NCBI RefSeq assembly: GCF_000231405.2
Contig: NZ_CP007032.1
Location: forward strand, 2,790,001 to 2,854,000
DNA length: 64,000 bases
From: Desulfitobacterium metallireducens DSM 15288
Lineage (GTDB): Bacteria > Bacillota > Desulfitobacteriia > Desulfitobacteriales > Desulfitobacteriaceae
Direction: 5' to 3'
Under the pieces are notes generated by a model. The model did no database searches, was not told the origin of the DNA, and worked only from the letters and a program-made list of their open reading frames with translations. Of this stretch, positions 983-9,008 are shown in pieces (positions within the stretch are counted from its first letter, which is position 1; each line of letters opens with the position of its first letter). The position numbers and the translations under genes are program-made.

Positions 983-1123
983 GCCTTAACCTCCTCTCTC
1001 CTCAATTTATACTCAAACTTCTCTGCTCCTGTGCATCCTTTAGATGAAAGAAAGAGCTGAGGGAAGGAAGGTAATAAAGCTTATACCCCTCACCTTTCCT
1101 TCACTTCTCACTCAGCCTTTCGC
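983..1123 (-). other. Intra-operon spacer with possible hairpin
   Basis: These 141 bases separate DUF2922 from yvrJ. They hold the yvrJ ribosome site (GAGGAG) at the yvrJ side. An imperfect inverted repeat pairs GAAGGAAAGGT-like and ACCTTCCTTC-like arms at about 1054-1104. It could be an attenuating or processing hairpin; no T-run of terminator quality follows it. I see no gene here. Confidence 0.35.
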
Positions 1124-1641: not shown

Positions 1642-1759
1642 GATGTTCTCTACGTAAAAAAGCAGCCGGACCTGCCGACTGCTTTTCACAAGGGATATTC
1701 ACGTATCTCCGGGCAGGAAGAGTTCGTGAACCGTTCCCCTGCCCGAGAACATCTGTTCT
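1642..1759 (-). ncRNA. Structured cis-regulatory leader of the DUF1659 operon (class unknown)
   Basis: Seen in the sequence, in RNA order: GATGTTCTC (1753-1745) can pair perfectly with GAGAACATC (1650-1642), which encloses the element. Inside, GGGCAGG (1744-1738) pairs with CCTGCCC (1717-1711). The loop of that hairpin contains TTCACG (1730-1725), complementary to CGTGAA (1703-1698) just 3' of the stem, giving a possible pseudoknot. The intrinsic terminator follows. The nested stem, pseudoknot and terminator resemble a riboswitch or other attenuator. I could not match it to a class I know. The start of the RNA is inferred from the promoter. Confidence 0.55.
1655..1683 (-). terminator. Attenuator hairpin in the DUF1659 leader
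   Basis: A 9-bp stem (1661-1669 with 1675-1683, one G-T pair) closes a 5-base loop. It is followed in the minus direction by six T residues (1655-1660). It lies between the promoter and the first gene, about 45 bases before the start codon, so it should act on the operon as an attenuator rather than end an upstream gene. Confidence 0.75.
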
Positions 1760-1765
1760 GTTATT

Positions 1766-1794
1766 AGTTTATCCAACTGAGCTCAATCTGTCAA
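1766..1794 (-). promoter_or_regulatory. Sigma-A-type promoter of the DUF1659 operon
   Basis: TTGACA (1794-1789), a 17-base spacer and TAAACT (1771-1766) read toward the operon. The -35 is a perfect consensus. It lies within direct repeat A of the toxin-antitoxin-flanking pair. The corresponding hexamers of repeat B (TTGCTA and TATTGA) are much weaker. Confidence 0.75.
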
Positions 1795-1909: not shown

Positions 1910-2308
1910 TTAGCTGAAACACCTTGTATTGATTCTCTTCAGTAATTCCGTAAGTGCAAAGATATATTTTTCTTGTATATTATGACATATATCTTTAGCT
2001 AATTGCTGGCTATAGATATGTACCGTTGAATTCCTGTCACTTAGCATCGCGAGCCATAATTCTTCATCCTGTATAAGGTCGGCTGCAAAGGCTTCGCGTA
2101 ATACCGTCTTAGGAGAATTTAGTCCCGTCAAACCCTCATCTTCAAAAACGATCTTCAAAGTTTTCCACGCTAGCTCAAAGGTAAACTCAAAACGCTGTAT
2201 CAATCCGTCTCCTGCTAGCTCATCAGATTCATCATATTTAGCAATACCTTCATTAAGTCTGGCTAGAGCATTTTGAAAGTTATTGAATTTTTGTTTTGGA
2301 TCGCTCAT
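1910..2308 (-). CDS. hepT: HepT-type HEPN toxin (HI0074-like substrate-binding partner)
   Basis: This 132-residue all-helical protein matches the nucleotidyltransferase substrate-binding family. It contains RNSTVHIY near residues 92-99, an exact R-x4-H-x-Y motif that forms the RNase site of HEPN toxins of the HepT type. In studied systems the Tyr is AMPylated by the partner MntA to neutralise the toxin. The gene overlaps the 3' end of the nucleotidyltransferase gene by 29 bases and is translated after it, so the antitoxin comes first. An AAGGGG sequence 9 bases upstream serves as ribosome site. A plain binding partner without toxicity is the alternative. Confidence 0.85.
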   Translation of the reverse strand: MSDPKQKFNNFQNALARLNEGIAKYDESDELAGDGLIQRFEFTFELAWKTLKIVFEDEGLTGLNSPKTVLREAFAADLIQDEELWLAMLSDRNSTVHIYSQQLAKDICHNIQEKYIFALTELLKRINTRCFS

Positions 2309-3031: not shown

Positions 3032-3085
3032 ATTATAGAATATATGTTCTATAATCATTCTATCTAAAGAACATGTTCGCGTCAA
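3032..3085 (-). promoter_or_regulatory. XRE promoter with two operator-like palindromes
   Basis: TTGACG (3085-3080), 17 bases and TAGAAT (3062-3057) form a near-consensus promoter. GAACATGTTC (3069-3078) lies in the spacer. A 9-bp inverted repeat with a 6-base spacer, arms ATTATAGAA and TTCTATAAT (3032-3040 and 3047-3055), covers the predicted start site. The two share the AGAACAT/ATGTTCT core. This arrangement fits autorepression. Confidence 0.7.
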
Positions 3086-3126
3086 TTATTATTTTCGTTC
3101 CCGTTTCTTAAGTATCCTTCCGCAAT

Positions 3127-3203: not shown

Positions 3204-6200
3204 TTAATTTAGAGATACCTTATTTGTATCAGTAATATCTGTCACTAATCTACCCGTTTCACTTCTGAACACTTTAAGATAATTTCCTACTACATTTGAA
3301 AAGTTATTCCCATTTATAGTTGTAACTACGACCGCAGGAGCGGGATACACATCAACAGTAACAGCGCCTTCACTATACTTACCTGTAAATGTATTTCCAA
3401 TAACTGTGTTAGCGGTTCCCCATCCTGCATTGAGATAGACTGCAAGTGCCGTATTCCCATTCGTATTAGCATTCATAATGTTATCACTGACCGTTACATC
3501 ACCAATACCAGCATCACAATTAACACCATATCCAGTTTCTCCAATATTAATGGCAAAGCTGTCTACCGTTGAGCCATTTGAGCCTGCAATTAAGTGGATT
3601 TCCCCACTGATTATCGATTGATGATCTGCAGCCCCTTGTAATGTCACCTTTTTATTCACAGCGATATCCCCATTGTAAGTTCCAGGTGTCACGTAAATTA
3701 TATCTCCCTCATCTGCCGCCGCAATTGCAGCTTGGATAGTTGAAAAGTTTTGGGATTGACCATTTTTTGTAATGACCGCAGCATTTGTTAATGATTGGTT
3801 CGACCAAATATTTACAGATTTATCTGTAATAAAATAGTTGGTATATCCAGCTGCAATTATTTCAACTGTTGCTGATGCTGTTACATGAGCACCATCCGAC
3901 CAAATTTGGGTGGGTTCAGCGAGTACACCATCACCGCTCAACGCAAATGCTGAAGGTGTTGTAACTCCGCTCCCAGGATCAACATTAACCGCGCCCCATT
4001 CATTACCACTCGTATACAAGTTCTTGGCCACGATTGTTGAACCATTTACTATCAACCCAGCTCCTAATCCATTCTTAATAGTTACATCATTCAAAATCGC
4101 ATATGCATTATTATAGGTATTTACTGCATGAGATTTTTGATCCGCATCGATCACGAGATTCGAAAGGGTAACAGGAGCTTCTTTCGTCCCCGCATAAATT
4201 GCAAGAAGGTGTTTAGAACCATTTTCTGTACTCCATGGAACATTAGCCGCTTTTAAAGTCACGTCTCCCATTCCTTCAAGAGTAACTGGAACTGTAATAT
4301 TGAGCTCTTTTGAAAGTTCATATGTTCCTGGTGCAACGATAATCCTCTCGCTAGCAGTCGCGGTACTGATTGCTTCTTCTAATTGGGCCACGTTCGTAAC
4401 ATATTCATCAATCTTTTGATAAGGGCTTACATAGGTCACTCCATCAACAATGACTTTATTATCTTTACATTCCGACCAATATGCTAAATTATTGAAATTG
4501 ATATACTTCCCAAAATTGTCTTTATTCACTGCAACACCATTAATCTTATTTTCAGCATCTAAGGTGAATGTTTGATTTAATCTCGCAGCAATAATTTTGG
4601 TCTTATCAGTAACATTATTAAAATTATTTCCGTTGACGTTTACTTCGGTATATGGGGTTTCTTTTCTATCAGTACTTCCCCAATACGTATTTCCTATTGC
4701 ATAACCCTTAATATTTTCCCATGTGTTATTCGCAATTGTGATATTACTCGCTTTAACTCCATCTAAGGCTACAGATGCATAATTAAATAGATTGTTCTCA
4801 ACCAAAATTGCCTTTGTCCCGTCGGTTCCTGCACCATTAAAATACAAGGAACCCCCTTCGTCAGCAAGGCTAGAGCTATTCGGTGTAAATGTACAATCGC
4901 GAATCGTAAATTTCTTATCTCCAACTACTTCAATTGTTTTATTCACATCAACTTTAGGCGTAAGGGTTAAACCTTCGATAGTTACATTATCACCCCAAAC
5001 TGTGATCAGGTTTTGAGAAGCCCAACTGCCATTTGGCGTAACATCAGAACTCGTGAGAACAGGATCTCCAATACCGATAATCGTTAAATTATTCGCGCTA
5101 ATTGGCATACACCAACCCGCCTGTCCAGAACTGGTTACGACTTGACCATTGCTATCTCGCAATGTAGTTGTATCCCTTGGTATATCAAATGGACCAGCCC
5201 CAATAACCCATGTTTGTCCGTCTGCTTGGCCCTTGATCGCAGCTTTTAGTTCATCTACAGTAGAAATAAACTGGGTTCCAGCAGGATATCCCGCAACATA
5301 TTTAACAAGAGGAACTCTCCATTTTGCCGTATATTGTGCACCGAAAGTACGGGATTGGATGATCACGTAAGACGGTGCAGATACGCCATCAAAGCCTTCA
5401 TCTGTTTTAATCGTGTATTCTCGGACTAAAATCCCATCGATATATTGAGAGATCTTACCCGAATCATAAACCATTTTTAGAGTATGGATTCCTTTCTCTA
5501 CATTTACATTCTCTTGAGTAAGAGGAATCCAATTTCCGTCTCCGGTACTATCCCAAGATTCCCAACCTTTAGTTTTGGTGGTAGGATCATTTCTGAATTG
5601 AAGGATTGCCCAATCAAGCACATTGTTTTGAGTCGATTGTACTCCATTGACACCATCAACCTGAACCCACATTGATGTTCTTACACCCGTTCCGTTTAAT
5701 AATTGATCGGTTAATTCGATTTGCGTTTCAACTTGCCATTGATCTGTCAACCCGACATTTGTTGCAGTACCACGACCTTGCCAGTCGTACCAGCTGTTCG
5801 AATTTTGTTGAGCAGATGTTGTGGTCGTAATCCAACCGTTAGATTGATCCCAACTTGCAGGTTCTGTTCTATCTTTTTTCCATTCTCCTAGACTTGCCTC
5901 AGCCATTGATTTCACATGGGTTATAGCATTTTTTAATAAATTTACAGTGTTTTGTAATGCTGCATTCGCCGCATCAATATTGCCTTGATTCCAAGGTCTA
6001 ACTCGAGAAGCCGCTAAAACCGCATCCATTGCATCAGTTACAGCTATAAACTCAGCGTCTGTATCGTGACCACCCGCATGCATGTACTCACTCAACGTGG
6101 CATCTGCTTCAGTAAAATCAGGACGATATAACGTAATGGATGGTTCTTGTACCTGAAGTATGGGGCCATTTCCGTCACTATCCCCGATCACCTTAAAATC

Positions 6201-8342
6201 CCAACGGCCAATTTCAATATCGCGAGAGAGTGTTAATACCACCGTATCATCTTTCTTCGCAGAAACTCCAGTTAATGTAACTTTGTGTCCATTATCGCTA
6301 ATGGTATCAGAGCTTATCCCCATTCCCTCAGCATTGGCTATTCTTACCAAATCGCCTTCCATGGCAACAATACCATTCGGTAATAAGAATTCAATTTGAC
6401 CCTTATTATAATCTTCTCCAAGCGTGTAAGTAAGTACGGTTTCCCCAACTACTCCGCCATGTCCATTGACACCAAAGCCCCCAGCTTTCGTTCCAACATT
6501 CCCAGTTGAAACGCCGCCGCTGCTACCTCCTCCCCCAACTGATGGAGTAGATCCGCCTACACTTCCACTACCCGTTACAGGAACCTCATTTCCTTTTTTA
6601 TCGAGAGTACCTATGTTTGCCCCAGAAGGTACATTAAGCTCAGCATTAACATTAGCAACCACATTTGTAACCGTCGTATTAGCCGAAAAATCAACTTGTG
6701 CTTCCTTGTTCACTTCAACCGTTGTAAATTTTCCGTCCAATGTAATTTTCTGTTCCTTATTTTCCGGTGCTATTTCTAGCTTTGCGATGTTTGCATTCGC
6801 GTCTGCTTTGATCGTTGCCGCTCCGTTTACTACGATTGGTTCAGCAAAAGTTCCTTTGAAGGTAACAACAGGGGATTGCCCCGCTATCGTTACAACTTCT
6901 ACACTACCTAGACTTCCTCCAGCTGCATCAAGAATCGCATAAGAAGTAACGACCGTGTTACCTATCTTGGTCGTTCCACTCGATTCCACACGAACTTCAT
7001 TAGAACTTGAAACAACGAGCGTTCCAGCTTCAGTATTCTTCAGATGAATGCTATCTTTAGCTCCAGAAAGAACGATTATTTTTCCAGCCTTAACATTATT
7101 AATGTTAGCCGTACCCTTCTCACCTGGATCAATAAACAATGTTCCTGTGATAGTAACATTATCCAAGACTACATTGTCACCCTGAATGTAAACACTGTAG
7201 GCTGTTCTAGCATTTTTTAAGGTTGCATTTTTCGCCGTAATCTTGATACTATCTGTCAATTCTTCGAGTTGATTTGCATCAGATGATCCTATAGTTGCGC
7301 CATCTTGTGCGTACACAACTACTGAGGTCAGTTGCTCAACGATACTCGAAGGGATACTCGCTTCGCCCCCGAAGGTGATGACATTTGACCCAAGGTTAAG
7401 TTTAGCAAAGTTCTTCGTCTCTGAAGGGAGTGTTGTACCGGTCAAAACTACAGGGGATGCTGTTAATGCGGCGAGTGGAGATCCTGCTAAGGCATCTGCT
7501 AAGTGATTATCTTCCCCATTGGCCAGATAGGTTTTACTATAGTTTAAATCATTGGCAAAAGTCTTAAGAACCTCAAGATTGGTACCGAAGCGGTCGAGAC
7601 CTCCAATTCGAATCGCATTCGGCAAGACAATTTTCACATTATCGGTTAATGCTCCCGTCCCTCCAAGGACATAAGTTTGATCTACATTCTCCTTTACTGA
7701 ATCAATATAGGCCATTACATTATTAGGAACATTATTAATGTCAGAAAGCAGAATTGGCATACCTTTCCCCGCGGCAATAGAAGCAATAGATAAAGCATCT
7801 GCATTATTCCATGCTGTAGCAACTACAAATTTATTGAAAGTCCCCATTTGCTTCGCTATATTGAGGGACGTTTCATAGCGATCACTGCCACCTAAAGGAA
7901 CAACAGTAATATTCATTTCAGCGAGTTGATCTAGGATTTTCTTTGTAATCACTTTATCTCCAGTGGTTACATAAACGGTCTTTACCCCGAGACGTTTTAA
8001 TTCTATTCCAGCATACTTATTTAGTTTATCCCCTTCTGTCAAAAGAATGGGGGCATTCTTCAATTTGGCCAGCGGCGCAGCCGCAAGAGCATCTACAAGA
8101 TTTTCATCCATTCCTGCAGACAATACAGCATACTCTGACGTGCCCTTCCATCCCTCTTGAGCAATTTTCGCAGCCGTTTCATATCTATCTATTCCTGAAA
8201 GCCGCTGTTCAGAGCCAACCGCTCCTGACACTACCGATTGTGTCTTAGAAGTTGCTGCAAATATGTTAGAAGTAAAGACAGTCGTTATAAAAAAACTAAC
8301 TGCTAAACATCCTGCAAGCAACTTTGTTGTATGCTTCTTCAT
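3204..8342 (-). CDS. Giant CWB2 surface protein with beta-helix repeats (1712 aa)
   Basis: The start at 8342 is set by GGAGG 7 bases upstream; an in-frame start 15 bases earlier overlaps that site. A signal peptide spans about residues 1-32. Three CWB2 repeats follow (about 45-345), marked by RLSGIDRYETA, GGSDRYETS and GGLDRFGTN, with DALA/DALS motifs; these attach the protein non-covalently to wall polymers. Residues about 360-590 are a beta-rich solenoid, followed by a Gly/Ser linker (GSGSVGGSTPSVGGGGSSGG). Then come a small beta domain, a helical FIVAR-like segment, a concanavalin-like domain and two right-handed beta-helix blocks (about 1030-1712) similar in style to pectate-lyase-like folds. 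Substrate and catalytic residues cannot be assigned. It is monocistronic with a long leader. Confidence 0.85.
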   Translation of the reverse strand: MKKHTTKLLAGCLAVSFFITTVFTSNIFAATSKTQSVVSGAVGSEQRLSGIDRYETAAKIAQEGWKGTSEYAVLSAGMDENLVDALAAAPLAKLKNAPILLTEGDKLNKYAGIELKRLGVKTVYVTTGDKVITKKILDQLAEMNITVVPLGGSDRYETSLNIAKQMGTFNKFVVATAWNNADALSIASIAAGKGMPILLSDINNVPNNVMAYIDSVKENVDQTYVLGGTGALTDNVKIVLPNAIRIGGLDRFGTNLEVLKTFANDLNYSKTYLANGEDNHLADALAGSPLAALTASPVVLTGTTLPSETKNFAKLNLGSNVITFGGEASIPSSIVEQLTSVVVYAQDGATIGSSDANQLEELTDSIKITAKNATLKNARTAYSVYIQGDNVVLDNVTITGTLFIDPGEKGTANINNVKAGKIIVLSGAKDSIHLKNTEAGTLVVSSSNEVRVESSGTTKIGNTVVTSYAILDAAGGSLGSVEVVTIAGQSPVVTFKGTFAEPIVVNGAATIKADANANIAKLEIAPENKEQKITLDGKFTTVEVNKEAQVDFSANTTVTNVVANVNAELNVPSGANIGTLDKKGNEVPVTGSGSVGGSTPSVGGGGSSGGVSTGNVGTKAGGFGVNGHGGVVGETVLTYTLGEDYNKGQIEFLLPNGIVAMEGDLVRIANAEGMGISSDTISDNGHKVTLTGVSAKKDDTVVLTLSRDIEIGRWDFKVIGDSDGNGPILQVQEPSITLYRPDFTEADATLSEYMHAGGHDTDAEFIAVTDAMDAVLAASRVRPWNQGNIDAANAALQNTVNLLKNAITHVKSMAEASLGEWKKDRTEPASWDQSNGWITTTTSAQQNSNSWYDWQGRGTATNVGLTDQWQVETQIELTDQLLNGTGVRTSMWVQVDGVNGVQSTQNNVLDWAILQFRNDPTTKTKGWESWDSTGDGNWIPLTQENVNVEKGIHTLKMVYDSGKISQYIDGILVREYTIKTDEGFDGVSAPSYVIIQSRTFGAQYTAKWRVPLVKYVAGYPAGTQFISTVDELKAAIKGQADGQTWVIGAGPFDIPRDTTTLRDSNGQVVTSSGQAGWCMPISANNLTIIGIGDPVLTSSDVTPNGSWASQNLITVWGDNVTIEGLTLTPKVDVNKTIEVVGDKKFTIRDCTFTPNSSSLADEGGSLYFNGAGTDGTKAILVENNLFNYASVALDGVKASNITIANNTWENIKGYAIGNTYWGSTDRKETPYTEVNVNGNNFNNVTDKTKIIAARLNQTFTLDAENKINGVAVNKDNFGKYINFNNLAYWSECKDNKVIVDGVTYVSPYQKIDEYVTNVAQLEEAISTATASERIIVAPGTYELSKELNITVPVTLEGMGDVTLKAANVPWSTENGSKHLLAIYAGTKEAPVTLSNLVIDADQKSHAVNTYNNAYAILNDVTIKNGLGAGLIVNGSTIVAKNLYTSGNEWGAVNVDPGSGVTTPSAFALSGDGVLAEPTQIWSDGAHVTASATVEIIAAGYTNYFITDKSVNIWSNQSLTNAAVITKNGQSQNFSTIQAAIAAADEGDIIYVTPGTYNGDIAVNKKVTLQGAADHQSIISGEIHLIAGSNGSTVDSFAINIGETGYGVNCDAGIGDVTVSDNIMNANTNGNTALAVYLNAGWGTANTVIGNTFTGKYSEGAVTVDVYPAPAVVVTTINGNNFSNVVGNYLKVFRSETGRLVTDITDTNKVSLN

Positions 8343-8670
8343 CTTCAACCTCCACACTTAAATTAAATAAAAGAAATAAAGGATTGTGAGTTTACTTATT
8401 TTTGCTATACTTAAAATTGTTAAAAGCAAAGCTAACCACAAGCTATGTTGTTGGGTAATTCAACATAAACTTCTGGTCAGGTTACCTGTTACAGCAGGCT
8501 TCCTGTTTTAGCTAAACTTTTCCGCAAAGGTCTTGGACATTGCTGGGTGACAACAAACCTGTCTAAGGCCTTCCTCATCTCACCTCCTACGGAGATATAC
8601 TTAGTAAACCCAAAAGTCCTACTTTGCATAGGACAAACTTCCTTTTTCTGTAAATTCTCCATTGGGCTAA
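8343..8670 (-). other. Long, hairpin-rich 5' leader of the giant CWB2 gene
   Basis: No gene is seen here. In minus orientation several hairpins are visible: GTCCTA/TAGGAC (8616-8634), CCTG/CAGG pairs in the 8480-8515 part, and TATGTTG/CAACATA (8444-8467). A few strings such as AGGTGAG and AATGTCCAAGAC recall the magnesium M-box riboswitch, but their order and spacing do not fit. It could be a riboswitch of a class I cannot name. A possible weak promoter (TTGCCA) lies near 8690. Confidence 0.35.
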
Positions 8671-8919: not shown

Positions 8920-9008
8920 TAGGTTCAAAGAAAAAGGCAAACCCGTTGAAAAGCGGGGACGCAAAGCGATGGGTCTAAGGCTTTTGCTAAGACTGCCAAG
9001 CTGCCATA
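8920..9008 (+). ncRNA. Cyclic di-GMP-I riboswitch (GEMM)
   Basis: The diagnostic core is present: AAAGGCAAACCCG, a tetraloop-like GTTGAAAAGC, GGGGACGCAAAGC, then GATGGGTCTAAGG and a second helix ending GACTGCCAAGCTGCC. These match the GGCAAACC...GGGACGCAAAGC...GGNCTAA consensus of the c-di-GMP-I aptamer. A terminator-like hairpin follows at 9029-9061 and the CWB2 gene starts at 9091. The switch should couple production of this surface protein to c-di-GMP. Its direction (on or off) cannot be told by eye. Confidence 0.93.

Follow-up and report, generated by a model that had tools for sequence, protein, structure and literature searches.

The operon at the start of the window (the whole 64-kb stretch of DNA analysed) that encodes DUF1659, DUF2922, a holin-like YvrJ protein and an amidase is preceded by a conserved, covarying folded RNA leader with a LexA-type box at its promoter. 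We propose that this leader is a cis-acting bistable attenuator, serving as a second, RNA-based lock on an SOS-induced holin/endolysin-like operon, and consider this proposal to have an even chance of being correct. The promoter box, the terminator-like hairpin and the conserved covarying fold constitute sequence evidence, from which we infer regulated readthrough, a signal that would control it and the role of the operon. DUF1659 and DUF2922 have no known function, and a LexA-type promoter combined with a conserved attenuator provides a concrete regulatory hypothesis for them.

The leader and its genomic setting

The source genome is a single 3.18-Mb contig, and the features of the locus are listed in Table 1. 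An earlier note, made from the sequence alone, had described a consensus promoter, a perfect 9-bp enclosing helix, an internal 7-bp helix, a complement between a loop and a 3' segment and an intrinsic terminator with six T, and all of these elements are present on the minus strand. The enclosing helix (P0) joins GATGTTCTC (1753-1745) to GAGAACATC (1650-1642) in nine perfect pairs, or 12 of 13 in the window copy once the flanks are included, and the internal helix (P1) joins GGGCAGG to CCTGCCC over 7 bp. The loop complement, TTCACG with CGTGAA, proved to be part of a longer hairpin, P2, that competes with P1. The earlier description did not include this competition, the second leader copy located elsewhere in the genome or a LexA-type box that the 5' arm of P0 overlaps. 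The leader RNA has a computed folding energy of -56.6 kcal/mol versus -39.9 (sd 3.8) for shuffled sequences (z -4.4), and none of 200 shuffles folded as well. No ORF is common to all 15 of the leaders described below, and seven of the 15 are without any ORF of at least six codons in the aligned stretch; ribosome-mediated attenuation by a leader peptide was ruled out by this lack of a conserved short ORF.

Several other features were observed around the leader. An XRE-type regulator gene is found upstream in the window, as it is at several related loci, and its promoter region (about 3040-3090, minus strand) contains the GAAC/GTTC-like sites GAACATGTTC and GAACATATATTC, identified by eye, at which the HTH protein or LexA may act. 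Between this gene and the leader is a nucleotidyltransferase and partner pair (2280-2594 and 1910-2308, minus strand) that resembles the MntA/HepT and HI0074 families and is flanked by a 52-bp direct repeat of the leader promoter region (1821-1770 and 2729-2678; 81% identical), an arrangement as if the pair had been inserted and the site duplicated. The gap between the DUF2922 and YvrJ genes (983-1123, minus strand) contains a stable hairpin, and hairpins or terminators occupy this gap at other loci too. Farther away are a gene for a protein of 1717 aa that has CW_binding_2 cell wall binding repeats and a BslA-like match (3204-8357, minus strand) and a c-di-GMP-I riboswitch (8926-9008, plus strand; 81.4 bits).

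Table 1. Features of the leader and its operon, with positions in the window.
Feature	Position	Strand	Description
XRE-type HTH regulator gene	2735-2965	minus	upstream of the leader promoter
Promoter	1766-1794	minus	-35 TTGACA (1794-1789), 17-nt spacer, -10 TAAACT (1771-1766); consensus match only, at 10 of 12 positions
LexA/SOS-type box	1747-1758	minus	GAACAGATGTTC; 7 nt past the -10; overlaps P0 5' arm
Leader	1757-1638	minus	between the promoter and the DUF1659-DUF2922-YvrJ-amidase operon
P0 5' arm	1745-1757	minus	contains the 9-bp helix arm 1753-1745
P1 5' strand	1738-1744	minus	GGGCAGG
P2 region	1698-1730	minus	outer TTCACG (1730-1725)/CGTGAA (1703-1698), inner CTCT (1722-1719)/GGAG (1710-1707), loop 1718-1711 including CCTGCCC
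P1 3' strand, also P2 hairpin loop	1711-1717	minus	CCTGCCC
Intrinsic-terminator-like hairpin T	1656-1686	minus	AAAAGCAGTCGG-CAGGT-CCGGCTGCTTTT; hairpin 1686-1662, six T 1661-1656
P0 3' arm	1638-1650	minus	
Shine-Dalgarno (SD) sequence of DUF1659 gene	1626-1619	minus	AAAGGAGG
DUF1659 gene	1383-1610	minus	start ATG at 1610 or 1613; PF07872 1.5e-19
DUF2922 gene	1124-1363	minus	PF11148 1.2e-23
YvrJ gene, holin-like	821-982	minus	PF12841 2.6e-19; holin PHROG 2.6e-6
N-acetylmuramoyl-L-alanine amidase gene	359-820	minus	PF01510 1.6e-14; lysis PHROGs 3.3e-27

Distribution and covariation of the leader

A covariance model built from ten sequences and searched against 73 genomes of the order identified the same leader at 15 loci (at least 104.7 bits) in 13 genomes, all within the same family; the named records among them are mostly Desulfosporosinus. 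DUF1659 is encoded downstream at 14 of these loci, and a class-wide search of 82 genomes yielded no further strong match outside the family. The fifteenth leader is a second copy in the source genome, 89% identical to that of the window. It stands directly before an amidase frame, with DUF1659, DUF2922 and YvrJ absent (L033, 1134-1490, minus strand), and may be decaying, because this frame stops at 118 instead of 153 codons. Thirteen weak matches below 40 bits were excluded from the 15 members; several are merely similar terminators (L060, L062, L064, L070), L057 is a leader truncated where its contig ends, and L061 a leader with an internal deletion. Also excluded was L089 (70.7 bits), a degenerate leader that has kept P2 and lost the 3' strand of P1. 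The element is wholly absent from several related operons (e.g., L012 and L018).

The earlier note would have taken a lack of conserved helices in related operons as refuting its proposal; the leader passed this check at these 15 loci, where both P0 and P2 covary. In an alignment fitted to P0 and P1, with P2 outside the model, five of 13 P0 pairs are changed on both sides (91.8% of cells paired), as are seven of 14 P2 pairs (91.0%), and P1 has five of seven pairs invariant and no covariation (99.0%). Neither the P0 nor the P2 covariation score was reached by any of 500 shuffles, which ignore the kinship of the 15 sequences, or by any slid version. Since the leader is conserved and covaries in related operons, a chance origin is untenable. 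P1 is not proven by covariation because it is nearly invariant, and its conservation fits contact with a protein or a second pairing as well.

The earlier note could not match the leader to a known class, and comparison with Rfam bears this out. The Rfam 15 covariance models gave no family match at gathering cut-offs, a result that ruled out a known RNA family, and a search extended to E 10 returned only ncr1175, on the opposite strand and at 13.1 bits (cut-off 60). The literature searched, which included two papers describing new bacterial RNAs, contained nothing on this leader. Judged by Rfam and these papers, the leader is a conserved folded RNA that has not been catalogued.

A LexA-type box at the promoter

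As in the LexA (SOS) regulon, a LexA-type box is located at the promoter (GAACAGATGTTC, 1758-1747), and it is the sole GAAC-N4-GTTC within the 64 kb (0.64 expected). Within the same genome, the lexA promoter has the box CGAACATTTGTTTG, and the recA promoter has CGAACAAATGTTTTG just after the -10, which is the placement found in the leader. LexA is present in 58 of 61 relatives, and a site matching seven or eight of the eight core bases was found in 30 of the 31 lexA upstreams examined (30 loci from relatives plus that of the source genome). Across a non-redundant set of 84 DUF1659 upstreams drawn from 111 loci, the full core occurs in 17 and is absent from 67, compared with 0.33 occurrences in shuffled sequence and none in 82 control regions taken downstream; at least seven of the eight bases are matched in 25, versus 7.1 in shuffles. 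The SOS-type box is clearly enriched before DUF1659 operons, though in a minority of them. Among the 15 leaders, the box matches no more than six of the eight core bases in four, where it reads GGACAAACATTC (L017, L052, L054, L056), and seven of the eight in two (L010, L014).

The strict pattern GAACRNRYGTTC occurs at five places in the source genome: the two leaders, two sites inside coding frames (L037, L038) and one intergenic site adjoining sporulation-related-looking genes (L040), as read from their surroundings. It occurs at neither lexA nor recA of this genome, where the boxes are looser. Because of the three non-leader places, the strict motif must be regarded as one that also arises outside SOS genes. 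We infer that LexA itself would bind the leader box, and the alternative that the box is the operator of the neighbouring HTH protein may also hold.

The palindromes in the P0 arms, together with an adjacent HTH gene and a GGGCAGG strand that is nearly invariant and recurs as GGCAGG, would also suit an arrangement of DNA sites, in which the repeats are a second LexA-like operator and repeated half-sites for the HTH protein, not RNA helices. We regard this explanation as improbable, given the compensating changes, G-U pairs included, at P0 spacer positions and in P2, and given that the 3' arms of the GGACAAACATTC group make poor LexA boxes and yet still pair.

Competing helices and the terminator-like hairpin

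Full P1 and full P2 use the same CCTGCCC bases; several sequences have a P2 that closes precisely around this seven-base strand of P1. In the window the two states differ little in computed energy (-21.3 and -22.9 kcal/mol), and their difference ranges from -3.7 to +10.2 kcal/mol across 14 sequences, those other than L003. When the growing chain was folded as successive prefixes, P1 formed first in all 15 leaders and P2 was dominant in nine once complete; in folds of the full leader P2 was dominant in 13, the exceptions being the window copy (0.31) and L017 (0.17). P1 and the outer part of P2 can also combine into a pseudoknot, a structure that nested folds cannot score. The pairings behind the pseudoknot proposed in the earlier note are present, but in this clade P1 and full P2 make better sense as alternatives than as components of a single rigid pseudoknot. 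Some shorter relatives (L093, L091, L097), in which P1 is followed by ACTTTTTCAG/CTGAAAAGT, appear by eye to be closer to a classical pseudoknot.

Hairpin T is present at 15 of 15 loci and is followed by at least six T among the next nine nucleotides at 14, the exception being L014 (four T in nine); within the source genome it is confined to the two leader copies. In related genomes, hairpins resembling it stand at the ends of ordinary genes (L060, L062), which supports the terminator nature of T, and it would be expected to stop transcription. Nested folding gave T a probability of 1.00 in all 15 leaders, whatever the state of P1 and P2, and a nested antiterminator, CCTGCC/GGCAGG, was rejected at a probability of at most 0.01 in all 15, loop-loop contacts lying outside such folds. 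Since T forms in either upstream state and nested folds contain no antiterminator, a simple two-state riboswitch picture is not shown. Of the attenuator claimed earlier, the strong hairpin and its T-rich tail hold up, but the missing nested antiterminator is the main gap in the model. The sequence GGCAG, which is complementary over 5-6 nt to the P2 loop, lies within T in all 15 leaders; this complementarity may be due to chance, because related genomes carry GGCAG in ordinary terminators as well (L062, L070).

With P1 and P2 separate from T and upstream of it, and with no nested antiterminator, the two helices might instead act on RNA polymerase as an antitermination RNA, much like HK022 put or the eps-associated EAR RNA, and carry it past T and the DUF2922-YvrJ hairpin. 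A stable hairpin in that gap at several other loci, and true terminators there in the Desulfotomaculum-type L102 and L106, are in keeping with this explanation, but the operon is short and no Rfam family, EAR included, matches the leader; we think it unlikely. Somewhat less probable still is that the fold serves chiefly to shield the mRNA at its 5' end or to adjust translation, with T a weak or vestigial terminator. P0 does start at the predicted transcription start, where hairpins persist in relatives that are without P1, P2 and T (e.g., L012 and L013), L014 has no good T run, and L114 and L116 retain P1 and P2-like pairing without the window-type T. However, this explanation has to accommodate a T hairpin at every one of the 15 loci, a T-rich tail at all but one of them, and a ribosome site that the 3' arm of P0 does not cover.

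Proteins of the operon

YvrJ is similar to a holin family, and the amidase to phage endolysins (PHROG matches of 2.6e-6 and 3.3e-27), so that holin and endolysin genes stand together as in a phage lysis cassette, and the operon would have a role in lysis. DUF2922 matches a PHROG of unknown function. A phage or plasmid element was rejected: DUF1659 and DUF2922 were not found in 50,697 phage records, neither DUF1659 nor the leader pattern was found in viral contigs, and the leader was not found in plasmids. The only paper on DUF1659 found in the literature searched (PMC2955703) places it in a cluster of sporulation-linked domains by correlation.

Profile comparison gave no homology between DUF1659 and DUF2922 (probability 0.2%), and a sequence search of solved structures returned nothing convincing for either. 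Both are predicted to have a beta-beta-alpha-beta fold (model pLDDT 86.9 for DUF1659 and 71.1 for DUF2922). The best Foldseek match of the DUF1659 model had an E value of 0.039, and VIA-align matched it to phi29 p6 (Z 5.8, rmsd 2.2, 59 aligned) and T7 Gp2 (Z 5.2, rmsd 2.2, 51 aligned); the DUF2922 model was also matched best to p6 (Z 4.6, rmsd 3.2, 68 aligned). The nearest solved structures would, by these weak matches between models and structures, include polymerase- and nucleic-acid-binding phage proteins, and we claim no function for DUF1659 or DUF2922 because the matches fall in the range that the tool calls common.

Leaders of other DUF1659 operons

Many DUF1659 operons of other groups have leaders of a different build. 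In 15 such leaders, a hairpin adjoins the promoter, in most cases with a T run after it. A GC-rich hairpin comes next, and its loop repeats the 3' arm of the first hairpin and can thus pair with the 5' arm of that hairpin; examples of such loop and upstream-strand pairs are GACCGGTAA with TTACCGGTC, GGCCGAA with TTCGGCC and TAGCCGG with CCGGCTA. The other DUF1659 operon of the source genome (L001) has a leader of this form. A hairpin loop complementary to an upstream strand over at least seven bases was found in ten of 83 DUF1659 upstreams versus 0.65 in shuffles (20 rounds), the ten including the window-type leaders L009 and L020 and one, L125, that may be a different arrangement; over at least eight bases the scan found four of 83 versus 0.1. 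These leaders share with the window leader the pairing of a hairpin loop with an upstream strand, a likeness that need not mean homology. In the DUF1659 leader of L104, a group II intron (near 700-790 and 2861-2960) lies inside the T run that belongs to the first hairpin, which is terminator-like; group II introns of this sort favour terminators.

It is conceivable, though doubtful, that the leaders of DUF1659 operons together make up a class of RNA switch that is new and evolves fast and is marked by the pairing of a hairpin loop with an upstream strand, that this class has arisen in or diverged into at least three architectures, and that it provides the second lock on an SOS-induced host holin/amidase operon. 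In such a switch, sensing could fall to small proteins that the operon itself encodes, DUF1659 and DUF2922.

Proposed mechanism and comparison with known systems

Under the attenuator model, release of LexA would permit transcription from the promoter that the box overlaps, and P1 would be the first helix to form in the nascent RNA. As the rest of P2 is transcribed, the RNA is predicted to be able to switch to the long P2 hairpin, which would display CCTGCCC as its loop, and T, judging by its hairpin and T run, would then halt most transcripts. Readthrough, needed for production of the holin-like protein and the amidase, would require a further event that acts on the P1/P2 switch, possibly the binding of a protein or ligand or contact of the P2 loop with GGCAG in the terminator; after readthrough, P0 would close the leader. 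The operon would in this way be under two locks, LexA and the leader, and the sensing of DNA damage would probably have to be followed by a second step before it is switched on. The hypothesis is thus of a holin/amidase operon of the host chromosome for which DNA damage is the trigger and which an RNA holds back. Should this hold, the operon would offer a clear example of RNA attenuation joined to SOS control, and the role of DUF1659 and DUF2922 would become testable.

The leader is a new family within a known kind, the leader attenuators, and its promoter partner is unusual. Like terminator-based attenuators and riboswitch leaders, it presents a promoter, competing helices and an intrinsic terminator followed by an operon; unlike them, it has neither a known aptamer nor a nested antiterminator, P1 is nearly invariant, and the 3' arm of the enclosing helix comes after the terminator. 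The short variants L093 and L091 share with what we take to be the design of preQ1-type pseudoknot riboswitches an H-type layout and an A-rich stretch before the second 3' strand, but the leader differs from these in having no Rfam match, different genes and a LexA-type promoter. EAR and put antitermination RNAs are likewise structured elements upstream of terminators, although the leader matches them neither in sequence nor in Rfam. The gene for an SOS-induced small membrane protein, tisB, has a LexA box and a structured 5' leader, as the operon here does, whereas the leader described here adds a terminator-like hairpin and belongs to bacteria of the Gram-positive type.
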